A DNA stretch of 64,000 bases, from positions 62,001 through 126,000 of the forward strand of contig NZ_UNRE01000003.1 in NCBI RefSeq assembly GCF_900537085.1, given 5' to 3'. Numbering within the stretch: the stretch's first letter is position 1; every line of letters begins with the position of its first letter. Shown one piece after another: positions 9,342-63,146 of this stretch. Position numbers and translations under genes: made by a program. Under the pieces are notes generated by a model, which was given only the letters and a program-made list of their open reading frames with translations, was not told the DNA's origin and searched no databases. Origin of the DNA: Agarivorans sp. Alg241-V36. Its GTDB lineage: Bacteria; Pseudomonadota; Gammaproteobacteria; Enterobacterales; Celerinatantimonadaceae.

Positions 9342-9397
9342 TCGACTAAACCGAATAGCTAGTTGGTTCGCAGTTTAGCTAGAATGTCGACTAAACC
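9342..9397 (+). repeat. Paired 11-bp repeats upstream of the LuxR-hydrolase gene (candidate operator)
   Basis: TCGACTAAACC occurs at 9342-9352 and again at 9387-9397, 45 bp apart. The second copy also forms an inverted pair with GTTTAG at 9373-9378. The repeats lie 73-128 bp before the start of the regulator gene, where an autoregulatory operator would be expected. Binding by that regulator is inference only. Confidence 0.4.
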
Positions 9398-9469: not shown

Positions 9470-11299
9470 ATGAATTCATTGGATAGCACCAAGGAGCGAG
9501 AGCTAACCAGTGTCGATAACAGGGAACAGTTGATCGGTATGATATACCGTGCGGCGGCAGAACCTGAATATTGGCCCGATTTGCTTGAGCACCTATACAT
9601 GATGCCAGAACTTCAAAGCACAGAAGATCTTGGCCACTCAGACCCCTCTTCGGCAAAATTAAGCCAAATGCTCGATGCGGTATCTCCGCAATTGTCGATG
9701 GCTCAGAGTCAATACTCTGAACGAAACCAAATTTTACTGGAACACTTTAACCAAGCATTGAATATCGCCAAGCGTATTTACCAGCTTGAAGAAAAAAACC
9801 ATTCACTTAACTCTTTGCTAGACCACATTCCGGTTGGCGTAATTTTGGTGAATGCTAAGAATGAAATTTTGCTTACAAACGAGCTAGCAGAGGAAACCCT
9901 GCAGCTCGGCCAAGGTTTGTACCAACGCAACAAAAACTTGGTTACTCAGCAAAGTGAATCAACAGACTTACTCAACCAGTATGTAGAAGAGCTGTCTTCT
10001 TTAGGGCCTAACGAATCGAGTAGCCGCGGACTACCGATTCAAATAGGTGAAGAGACAGATGTGCAAACCATGGTGATTCTGAGCCCGGTTAATCACCTGC
10101 AAAATCCAAGCTTAGAGCGAAATGCCAGTGTGGTGGTATTCATCTCCCCTTCTCGCCCTGACGTGGAGCTTGATTTAGCCGCATTTGCCGACGGTTATAA
10201 CTTAACCCCAAAAGAAGCGCGCATCGTTAATTATATTGCGCAAGGCATGTCGCCTCCCGATATTGCTGACAAGATTTTTGTTAGTTACAACACCGTTCGA
10301 ACTCAGCTTAAATCAGTTTTCAAGAAAACCAATGTTAGCAGCCAAAGCGAATTAGCCAGCTTAGTGCTAACCGGGCCTTGGGGAATGCTATCGCAAAGTA
10401 GCCGTCATTTTGACTTTGCCGAAGCTCATGACCTTAACGCGCGCTACTTTACTCTGCCCGATCAACGTAAGTTGTGTTACCAAGAATATGGCAGCCCAAA
10501 GGGCAAGCCAGTAGTGTATTGCCACAGCATTTTGGGTAGTCGCTTAGAGAACTTTTTTGATGACGTTGATTTGGCAAAACACCTAGGTTTACGTTTAATT
10601 AGCATCGACCGCCCCGGTTTCGGAGGCTCTGATTACTGCGAAAACTACGGTTTTGTTAGCTGGTCACAAGACTTAGCAGCACTTCTCGACCATCTAGGGC
10701 TAGAGCAAGTACAGTTACTTGGTTATGCCACAGGAGGCGTTTACGCCGCCTGCTGCGCAGCGAGTATTCCTGAGCGAATTAGCAAGATGACCATTGTGAG
10801 CTCAGGTGATGCCCTCACCTACGACAGTGATTATGAGGCGACTGCTAAGCTATATCGCATGCACATGAAGCTGGCTCGTGATTTTCCGAGTATGCATCGC
10901 TTATTTACTAATATTCTTGATAAGGGCCTACACAAAGACCCCAACAAATTATTTAAGGTATTAGCTCGCGATCTAGAAGGTACCGATGTAGAACTATTTG
11001 AAAGCCCACAGTTTAGGGAAAAGTTTGGCCGCTATTTAAAAGAGTCAAAGATCCAAGGCGGTAATGCCTTTTCTGACGAAGTGCGCCAGGTGATGTCACC
11101 TTGGGGCTTTGAGTTAGAAGATATTAAGGTAAGCACTCAGTTATTTCATGGCGAACAAGACAAGCATATTCCTTTGGTACTAGCAGAACGTTTTATCGAA
11201 CGCGCCGCCAATGCCAAACTTACGGTAATTCCAGATCAGGGTCATTACATGATTTATCGGCAATGGCCAGAAATACTCAAAAGTGTTGCTAGCAACTAA
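9470..11299 (+). CDS. LuxR-type HTH regulator fused to a pseudo alpha/beta-hydrolase
   Basis: 609 residues, no membrane segment or signal peptide. Order: N-terminal helical region (LIGMIYRAAAEPEYWPDLLE); a PAS-like segment (about 108-165, LLDHIPVGVILVNAKNEIL); a LuxR-type DNA-binding domain (about 240-305, NLTPKEARIVNYIAQGMSPP, then IADKIFVSYNTVRTQLKSVF); and an alpha/beta-hydrolase fold (about 325-605). The nucleophile elbow reads LLGYATGG, so the serine expected in G-x-S-x-G is Ala420, while the acid Asp564 (GEQDKHIP) and His592 (DQGHYMIY) remain. The domain is therefore predicted to be non-catalytic and may bind a ligand that controls DNA binding, as dead hydrolases do in gibberellin perception by GID1; that is an analogy. 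The HTH lies in the middle rather than at the C-terminus. Single-gene unit with repeats upstream and a terminator after it. Target genes are unknown. Confidence 0.85.
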   Translation: MNSLDSTKERELTSVDNREQLIGMIYRAAAEPEYWPDLLEHLYMMPELQSTEDLGHSDPSSAKLSQMLDAVSPQLSMAQSQYSERNQILLEHFNQALNIAKRIYQLEEKNHSLNSLLDHIPVGVILVNAKNEILLTNELAEETLQLGQGLYQRNKNLVTQQSESTDLLNQYVEELSSLGPNESSSRGLPIQIGEETDVQTMVILSPVNHLQNPSLERNASVVVFISPSRPDVELDLAAFADGYNLTPKEARIVNYIAQGMSPPDIADKIFVSYNTVRTQLKSVFKKTNVSSQSELASLVLTGPWGMLSQSSRHFDFAEAHDLNARYFTLPDQRKLCYQEYGSPKGKPVVYCHSILGSRLENFFDDVDLAKHLGLRLISIDRPGFGGSDYCENYGFVSWSQDLAALLDHLGLEQVQLLGYATGGVYAACCAASIPERISKMTIVSSGDALTYDSDYEATAKLYRMHMKLARDFPSMHRLFTNILDKGLHKDPNKLFKVLARDLEGTDVELFESPQFREKFGRYLKESKIQGGNAFSDEVRQVMSPWGFELEDIKVSTQLFHGEQDKHIPLVLAERFIERAANAKLTVIPDQGHYMIYRQWPEILKSVASN

Positions 11300-11315: not shown

Positions 11316-11345
11316 CAAAAAAGGCGGCCAATGGCCGCCTTTTTA
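11316..11345. terminator. Bidirectional Rho-independent terminator
   Basis: Stem AGGCGGC/GCCGCCT (11322-11328 with 11334-11340) flanked by an A run on the left and a T run on the right. It serves the plus-strand regulator gene and the convergent minus-strand yfgJ, whose stop codon it abuts. Confidence 0.88.
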
Positions 11346-11579
11346 TTAGCTGTCTAAGCGCTCATAACGCCGAACAACAGCTCGCTTCGATTTTAACTCA
11401 TTACAGCTATTACAAAAGTAATCCACCGCACCACAGGCTTTTAGCTCTTCAAGCTCGGCATCACACTTATCGCAATGCACTGTCTGGGAAAACTTATGGT
11501 GGCAAGCACCACATAACCAATGGTCATGTTCATGTTGTAATTCACCATCACACTCTGGGCAAGCTATTTCAATACTCAT
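11346..11579 (-). CDS. yfgJ: YfgJ-family zinc-ribbon protein
   Basis: Small 77-residue cytoplasmic protein with four Cys pairs: CPEC (8-11), CGAC (23-26), CDKC (36-39) and CNSC (56-59), as expected for a double zinc ribbon. The string LKACGAVDYFC is shared with E. coli YfgJ, and the gene directly follows der (12 bp apart) as in E. coli. Molecular function is not known. An overlapping open frame on the other strand (11309-11656) is a shadow. Confidence 0.85.
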   Translation of the reverse strand: MSIEIACPECDGELQHEHDHWLCGACHHKFSQTVHCDKCDAELEELKACGAVDYFCNSCNELKSKRAVVRRYERLDS

Positions 11580-61805: not shown

Positions 61806-63146
61806 TTAAGCGAGTGCCTTAATAAACAAAAACTGAGGGTGTTCACTTAAACGCTGAAAATGCTCTGGCGAGAGCGTTTTTAAGGCTTCACTAGGTTTGC
61901 CTTCGTTTAACTCGGCTAGCAGCATTCCGTTGTTGGTAATGGCACCAATTAAGGCAGAAAGCGGCCTGCGGTAAAAGCTCACCTTAACTGGCTTACCTAC
62001 GGTGTCCCACTGCTCTGTAATGAGCTCGGTGTTAAAGTATTTGCCACTAGAGCTGGCCTCAATATCAACCATCGGGTGATGGGTAGAAAATACAAACTGC
62101 CCGCCACTCACTAGCACCCGTTTCACGTCAGTAAATAAGGGGTTAAGATCTTCCAAGTAATGCAACATTAGCGGGCAAATAACCATGTCATAGCTGGCGT
62201 CACTTTCTTCAGGTAAACCCGTGCCTAGGTCTTGCTGATAACAGCGAACTTTTCCTGCTAGCTTTTGATTGACCAGCTCAATCATTTCAGCTGAACCGTC
62301 TATGGCAGTTACCACTGCGCCTTCTGCTAGCAAGTATTCGGCGTAAACCCCAGATCCACAACCTAAATCAAGCACACGCTTGCCCTGTAAGTCACCTAAC
62401 ATAGCTTGCAGAGATGGCCTCTCATAATGGGCATTAAACACATTGTCGCGAATTGCCAAGTCGTATTCATTCGCATAGGTGGAATACATGGGCGCCTTTT
62501 CGGCAGAGGGTTGCGTCATTGATTTATTGGCTTCTTGGTCGGTAGGCACAGTATCAAGTATGTATTCTAAAGTACTGGAACCACTAAAGCCGAGTAACCA
62601 ATTAAGATAGGGGTAAGTTTCGGTTTTTACTACTTTAAACCCCTTACTAAGGTAGAGTTTTTTAGCTCGCGGATTGGTATCGATAACATCTAAACGTAGC
62701 TTGCTGAACCCCTGCGTACGCGCTTGCTCAATAATGCCATCTAGTAACATTGAGCCTAAACCTAAGCCGCGATAAGACTCGTCAACCACAATACCGTCCA
62801 TCACCATAGTTTGCTGGCTAGCTTTGCGCTCAAATAAGCTAAACACTATGGCGGCCCAAGCACCTTTAAAATAGCCTAACAAATCAACTAAACCTTGCCA
62901 ACCAATGCCACTGGTAAAGCCTGCTTTAGGTGTTTGAAAGCCAGCCACCGCAACCAACTTACCTTGGTCAATCACCGATAATGAATACTCTGCTTGAAAA
63001 GCCTGAGCCAATAATGTGATGCGTTGCTGTTGATCCGGCACTGCCAAGCGAAATTTTTGACCAAATGCTTGCTCATATAACTTGGCAACCTGCGCTCTTT
63101 GCTGTTCGGGCCAAGCAAGCTGAGCGCGCAACGGCGACTTATTCAT
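61806..63146 (-). CDS. GNAT acetyltransferase fused to SAM-dependent methyltransferase
   Basis: 446 residues. N-terminal GNAT domain (about 1-190, DESYRGLGLGSMLLDGIIEQ as the CoA-binding loop; DTNPRAKKLYLSKGF) joined by a short linker (about 195-215) to a class I methyltransferase (about 215-446) with motif I VLDLGCGSGVYAEYLL (near 255), AIDGSAEMIEL and FVFSTHHPMVDI. Both domains appear intact. I know of no named family with this order; the substrate is unknown. ATG start; 43 bp downstream of the GNAT gene at 63190-63678. Confidence 0.85.
   Translation of the reverse strand: MNKSPLRAQLAWPEQQRAQVAKLYEQAFGQKFRLAVPDQQQRITLLAQAFQAEYSLSVIDQGKLVAVAGFQTPKAGFTSGIGWQGLVDLLGYFKGAWAAIVFSLFERKASQQTMVMDGIVVDESYRGLGLGSMLLDGIIEQARTQGFSKLRLDVIDTNPRAKKLYLSKGFKVVKTETYPYLNWLLGFSGSSTLEYILDTVPTDQEANKSMTQPSAEKAPMYSTYANEYDLAIRDNVFNAHYERPSLQAMLGDLQGKRVLDLGCGSGVYAEYLLAEGAVVTAIDGSAEMIELVNQKLAGKVRCYQQDLGTGLPEESDASYDMVICPLMLHYLEDLNPLFTDVKRVLVSGGQFVFSTHHPMVDIEASSSGKYFNTELITEQWDTVGKPVKVSFYRRPLSALIGAITNNGMLLAELNEGKPSEALKTLSPEHFQRLSEHPQFLFIKALA

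Follow-up and report, generated by a model that had tools for sequence, protein, structure and literature searches.

What does a LuxR-type transcriptional regulator do with an alpha/beta-hydrolase (ABH) domain that has lost its nucleophile? The question is raised by a gene of Agarivorans sp. Alg241-V36 that lies in the window analysed here, a stretch of 64,000 nucleotides (positions 62,001 to 126,000 of contig NZ_UNRE01000003.1). On balance, the comparison of this protein with its relatives argues for a one-component regulator whose ABH domain would no longer hydrolyse and would serve instead as a sensing or gating domain. The features on which the argument draws are given below in window coordinates.

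9342..9397, + strand: stretch upstream of the gene in which TCGACTAAACC occurs twice exactly, a possible operator (repeat search).
9470..11299, + strand: regulator gene, 609 aa (ORF with an ATG start; dN/dS far below 1).
9530..9595, + strand: N-terminal motif LIxxIYxAAxEPExWPxLL, aa 21-42, common to the fused family (alignments).
9809..10033, + strand: PAS-like region, aa 114-188 (Pfam PAS, E 4.5e-4, just under the cut-off).
10199..10363, + strand: LuxR/GerE helix-turn-helix (HTH), aa 244-298 (Pfam GerE, E 3.2e-10, above the cut-off).
10442..11296, + strand: ABH domain, aa 325-609 (Pfam Abhydrolase_1 at 346-595, E 6.4e-18).
10721..10738, + strand: nucleophile elbow G-Y-A-T-G-G, in which Ala420 is the codon GCC at 10727-10729.
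10820..11119, + strand: lid or cap, aa 451-550; within Agarivorans no other part of the ABH domain is as well conserved; limits set by a rough offset.
11159..11161, + strand: codon of Asp564, the acid position (alignment), kept in Agarivorans and lost in the sister genus.
11243..11245, + strand: codon of His592, the catalytic His position (alignment), kept.
11317..11346, no strand assigned: GC-rich hairpin flanked by runs of T and A, a probable two-way terminator (by eye).

The first-pass annotation had placed a LuxR-type HTH in the middle of the protein, and this is borne out by a GerE match of 39.9 bits against a Pfam cut-off of 23.5. Its label for the preceding region, "PAS-like", is right but weak, since the PAS match at 114-188 scores 20.6 bits, under the cut-off of 22.6. 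The ABH fold signature is present (Abhydrolase_1, 65.7 bits against a cut-off of 25.8), and the alignment columns agree with the earlier description of a GYATGG elbow with Ala420 and with Asp564 and His592 retained. The elbow reads LLGY-A-TGG, with no Ser, Cys or Asp nucleophile, and the ABH domain of Agarivorans has a further Asp447 after strand 6. No autoinducer-binding domain is found among the nine Pfam families that match the window protein at E <= 0.1, and on these matches an AHL-type LuxR receptor was ruled out. The window genome has a single fused HTH-ABH gene; three other matches in this genome are ABH-only.

Is the alanine an inherited state or an accident of one genome? The gene was found in all seven Agarivorans genomes searched (the window genome and six more; G000-G006), with Ala at the elbow in 7/7, and the six full-length genes all encode it by GCC. 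The ortholog of G006 (L037 3948-5788, L123 7948-9764) lies in two overlapping frames, with a frameshift in the HTH and the Ala kept, and may be a pseudogene, a sequencing error or a real split. Another Agarivorans locus (L034, from G005) shows 87% identity. The order guaA-guaB-xseA-gene-der is shared by all four Agarivorans stretches that include flanking DNA (window, L034, L122 and L123) and by one locus of the sister genus (L039), while in a second one (L038) xseA adjoins the gene and der lies further away, with other ORFs in between. Two proteins of the sister genus (L011 and L012) carry the Ala and the His, with the acid replaced by Asn or Ser; they are 41 and 36% identical over the ABH domain, which in this genus is full length (37-42% identity in a separate comparison), and the sister genus is without both acids, at the Asp564 and Asp447 positions alike. 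In the three remaining genomes of the family the only fused protein is a more distant one with Cys-Asp-His, carried by G009 (L013); G007 and G011 lack the fusion. The same Cys-Asp-His PAS-LuxR-ABH type carried by G009 (L013/L040) occurs as a second copy in G003 (L036 4363-6171), beside a small exported-looking protein.

Using a Nei-Gojobori script on the window gene and those of the three nearer Agarivorans (dS is saturated in more distant pairs), we obtained dN/dS values of 0.031-0.033 for the ABH domain and 0 for the HTH, and only 3 of 70 residues of the HTH region (aa 236-305) vary among six Agarivorans. The ABH domain is under purifying selection. Ordinary decay, in which the domain is the useless remnant of a hydrolase or the Ala a chance mutation or sequencing error, is an extremely improbable explanation: damaged copies do occur, the G006 one being split by its HTH frameshift and a fused copy of G070 (L103) also being frameshifted, but GCC stands in 6/6 full-length Agarivorans genes, the ABH dN/dS is about 0.03 and a full-length ABH domain has been retained in another genus. 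Codon identity, dN/dS and this conservation in another genus led us to rule it out. The nucleophile was thus lost in a heritable way and the loss is under selection; it is not private to one genome, as Ala is found in all seven genomes of the genus and in the sister genus and a nucleophile is absent in most fused relatives.

The wider family was collected from 60 relatives and then from overlapping samples of genomes at the level of the phylum (398), the order (394) and the class (369), and six named plasmid loci were added. This gave 81 distinct HTH+ABH ORFs, of which one, a cut copy of the window gene (L219), was dropped; of the remaining 80, some are truncated where a contig ends, and one is the latter half of the G006 gene that the frameshift splits. 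At their elbow stand Ser (22), Gly (13), Ala (12), Val (10), Gln (8), Asp (7), Cys (2), Asn (2), Met (1), Thr (1), Tyr (1) and a gap (1), so that Ser, Cys or Asp is present in 31/80 and absent in 49/80, one of the 49 being the gap. Named examples of fused proteins come from Ruegeria sp. TM1040 (Asp), Paracoccus liaowanqingii (Gly), Aliiroseovarius sp. M344 (Gly), Maritalea myrionectae (Gly) and two Martelella (Asn). The rest of the triad is also incomplete: the His is kept in 35 of 77 readable proteins and an acid (Asp or Glu) in 59 of 76, the His accompanies the Ser in 10 of the 22 Ser-keeping proteins, and the full triad stands at the aligned positions in 14/80 (all three readable in 74).

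As a control we took 100 stand-alone ABH ORFs and dropped four, namely two fragments of fused genes (L103, Gly, and L066, Ser without His) and two longer ORFs with a different N-terminus, both Ser-Asp-His (L169 and L170). The latter of these (358-2019, from G386) encodes 553 aa with a C-terminal ABH domain; its N-terminus resembles a winged-helix regulator by eye, with no Pfam match in that part. In all 96 remaining stand-alone ABHs the elbow letter is Ser (86) or Asp (10), with the His in 52 of 53 readable rows and the acid in 52 of 55, although the control leans to canonical members because part of it was found with the Pfam model. Twenty-nine of the 96 came from the class search with the fused-family profile A5, and 28 of these have the full triad, L239 being cut short. 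Scoring the nucleophile position in aligned homologues, as had been suggested, separates the two groups clearly (49/80 fused proteins without Ser, Cys or Asp against 0/96), with p 1.3e-22 in Fisher's test on all rows and p 2.0e-11 after clustering at 40% identity (43 fused, 46 stand-alone). The window regulator is a member of a wider family and not a one-off. The opposite picture, also raised by the first-pass annotation, in which relatives keep Ser and the window genome alone is mutated, fails for the genus, for the sister genus and for most fused proteins; the rule of loss, however, is not absolute, since 22/80 fused proteins keep Ser, two have Cys and 14/80 have the full triad.

Could the family be essentially enzymatic nonetheless, with other nucleophiles or with shifted residues missed by the alignment? 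Asp in 7/80 and Cys in 2/80 are potential nucleophiles at the elbow, and some alignment columns are gapped or shifted. We regard this explanation as highly improbable, since Ala, Val, Gly and Gln stand in clear G-x-X-x-G contexts in most rows, and the stand-alone controls in the same alignment are read correctly.

How did such proteins arise? In a careful tree of the ABH domain (87 rows, 55 fused and 32 stand-alone, with the triad columns removed, the fused rows thinned at 70% identity and 14 long-branch loci left out) all the fused rows lie on one side of one branch, with support 93/84, and a single change between fused and stand-alone is found in 92% of 200 bootstrap trees. A single HTH-ABH fusion event is likely, though not certain, because in a 72-row quick tree a few stand-alone rows fall among the fused ones, at weak forks. 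The nucleophile state must change 9 times in the 87-row tree, 9 times in a 93-row quick tree and 10 times in the 72-row tree; these counts cannot separate loss from gain, and repeated loss is the simpler reading because all the stand-alone rows in the trees are intact. The loss probably predates the genus Agarivorans, since the 93-row tree groups the window clade with the sister genus and with L192 (Val) at support 93; in the 87-row tree a five-row set that includes the Agarivorans rows has support 98/83.

The same profile also matches PAS-LuxR regulators of about 370-440 aa over their N-terminal, PAS-like and HTH parts, without an ABH domain. When 45 distinct HTH-only ORFs were checked for an ABH ORF within 150 bases, six were positive. 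One of them was the G070 copy with the frameshift and another was a further ORF next to an ABH already counted, so that four two-gene PAS-LuxR/ABH pairs remain, each on the same strand and overlapping. The ABH gene comes first in G154 (L268) and G188 (L264), which are 2 of the 20 HTH-only control loci described below, and second in G850 (L206/L226), where its start codon lies within the end of the regulator gene, and in G189 (L069). A GxSxG motif is present in the ABHs of all four pairs. It is probable that the ancestor was such a two-gene pair, a PAS-LuxR regulator with an adjacent active ABH, and that the two genes were fused and catalysis was then lost several times.

If the ABH domain is maintained without its nucleophile, what is it for? 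We propose that in this protein the C-terminal ABH domain would sense and would gate the LuxR-type HTH, the DNA-binding domain that sits between it and the N-terminal PAS-like module. A small molecule would most likely bind under the lid, at the former place of the substrate, and could change the packing of the ABH domain on the PAS/HTH part, which in turn would switch DNA binding or dimerisation. From the sequences we infer the loss of hydrolysis, the ligand binding, the direction of the switch and its targets. The claim of the first-pass annotation that a dead hydrolase became the sensor of a one-protein regulator is still the best reading and is supported in part, with the nucleophile loss recurrent and under selection, but the loss does not hold as a family-wide rule, and an ester- or lactone-like ligand, as the annotation supposed, would be one candidate.

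The lid bears on this proposal. Between the window protein and those of two distant Agarivorans it is 92% identical, against 76% for core 1 and 71 and 80% for core 2, and among six Agarivorans fewer positions vary in the lid (14 of 100) than in core 1 (41 of 126) or core 2 (24 of 59). No such excess is found in ordinary ABHs: of seven ortholog pairs taken between the window genome and G003, one was skipped by the motif rule and the six scored gave 69-82% for the lid and 70-83% for core 1. Against the sister genus the lid (38%) falls below core 1 (51%). We take the pattern to mean that the lid is adapted within the genus and altered from one genus to the next, which would suit either a ligand site or an interface. 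The conservation of the lid within the genus thus fits an interface as well as a pocket, and the domain could serve for packing or for protein-protein contact (in dimerisation, with a partner or with RNA polymerase) and bind no small molecule, as pseudo-hydrolases such as neuroligin act as contact domains. We consider this unlikely, as it does not account by itself for the Ser-type ABHs of the two-gene pairs or for the full triad in 14/80 fused relatives. The ABH domain as a sensor is probably ligand-binding.

Some chemistry could survive in Agarivorans, because Asp564, His592 and Asp447 are kept. In an arrangement like that of the cofactor-free quinolone dioxygenases AqdC and HOD, which also have the ABH fold, His592 with Asp564 or Asp447 would act as the base, and the protein would be a trigger enzyme or a binder of quinolone-type compounds. 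In AqdC the elbow residue is naturally Ala and the His-Asp pair suffices (PMC10548524), so surviving His-Asp chemistry is possible, and the His, the strand-7 Asp and the Asp after strand 6 are all kept in Agarivorans. The sister genus, however, has the Ala and yet lost both acids, the His is absent in 42 of 77 readable fused relatives, and none of the 35 best PDB matches (E <= 1e-12, clade profile) is named as such a dioxygenase. For these reasons we hold this alternative to be quite improbable.

The structure predictions are of low confidence: the full-length model (two sequences) has a mean pLDDT of 39 and a pTM of 0.22, and the ABH-only model (three sequences), with pLDDT 49 and pTM 0.56, is too weak to judge the pocket and has a strand-turn-helix at the elbow.

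The plant gibberellin receptor GID1 is an ABH without catalysis that reads a small molecule. The window protein would resemble it, at the level of the fold, in an ABH domain that has probably lost catalysis and reads a small molecule; GID1, in contrast, has no HTH and signals via partner proteins. With the LuxR-type receptors of quorum sensing the window protein shares a LuxR-type HTH in a one-component regulator, but its HTH lies in mid-protein and not at the C-terminus, and its Pfam matches include no autoinducer-binding domain. By analogy, the nearest working parallel is RsbQ/RsbP of the Bacillus sigma-B system, in which the ABH protein contacts the PAS domain directly, "Model 2" makes the hydrolase the sensor, and RsbQ requires its Ser-Asp-His triad for signalling (PMC3183031); an AlphaFold model is also described (PMC12143880). 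RsbQ is an ABH paired with a PAS-containing signalling protein, and the window protein combines a clear ABH domain with a PAS-like region that falls just under the Pfam cut-off; but RsbQ is encoded by a separate, adjacent gene and needs its triad, whereas the window ABH domain is fused behind a LuxR HTH output and its triad is broken. The four two-gene pairs have the layout of RsbQ/RsbP with a different output domain, the published outputs of RsbQ-type systems being a PPM phosphatase, a histidine kinase and a diguanylate cyclase, with no mention of "LuxR" in that text (PMC3183031). For RsbQ-type systems it is debated whether the signal is made or read by the hydrolase, and the family bears on this question, since its members have mostly dropped catalysis and retained the domain. 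A testable rule follows, that an ABH domain fused behind a LuxR HTH usually loses catalysis and is kept.

Which genes might such a regulator control? The gene stands alone in the window genome, as first annotated, with xseA upstream on the same strand and der downstream on the other, and no conserved partner gene is present in this genome, nor is a local target evident in the window. It also has repeats of its own upstream: the direct repeat TCGACTAAACC at 9342-9352 and 9387-9397 was confirmed, these being its sole exact copies in the window, where five copies with at most one mismatch are observed against 0.76 expected. The upstream stretch that starts at the first copy is fairly conserved in Agarivorans and the second copy less so, being altered in the upstream regions of two more distant Agarivorans. 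A 25-base core of this stretch, searched genome-wide with up to three mismatches, occurs once; an operator common to other genes was thus rejected, and no regulon was derived from this core because of its single genomic occurrence. Downstream, the hairpin at 11317..11346 was not listed by the terminator scan. Between the regulator gene and der a small ORF on the minus strand (about 11345-11579) would encode, by eye, a zinc ribbon of four Cys pairs, presumably similar to E. coli yfgJ; a 115-aa ORF on the other strand at 11345-11579 is probably spurious.

The annotated names of the fused proteins are generic (such as "alpha/beta fold hydrolase" and "LuxR C-terminal-related transcriptional regulator" at the six plasmid loci), among the papers listed in searches of the open-licence PMC literature none describes LuxR-ABH fusions with broken triads in its title or abstract opening, and in PMC2447327 "hydrolase" occurs solely in the reference list. 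We see in the protein a LuxR-type regulator of the one-component kind in which a pseudo-hydrolase would be the sensor. Tentatively, it may stand for a large undescribed class, in which an ABH, at first encoded next to a PAS-LuxR regulator, became part of it and was repeatedly turned from an enzyme into a ligand receptor, in a bacterial parallel to GID1, with a lineage-specific ligand set by the lid and, outside Agarivorans, often with control of a neighbouring exported or membrane gene. If so, marine and other proteobacteria would be sensing a pool of further signals, and the proteins could supply scaffolds for biosensors.

The neighbours of the fused genes differ from locus to locus, and a conserved partner gene was rejected. 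In a survey of 37 fused and 20 HTH-only loci with a crude signal-peptide rule, exported or membrane-like genes made up 31/73 adjacent against 41/234 non-adjacent genes at the fused loci (p 3e-5), and 4/40 against 16/112 at the HTH-only loci. The adjacent genes include, by Pfam, HYR/autotransporter, LamG/HYR, TSP3, OmpA-like barrel and Omp85 proteins; the claim is limited to "exported or membrane" because inner-membrane transporters and many genes without a Pfam match are also among those marked. Fused genes beside exported or membrane genes are seen, for example, at L127, L041, L135, L125, L131 and L129.
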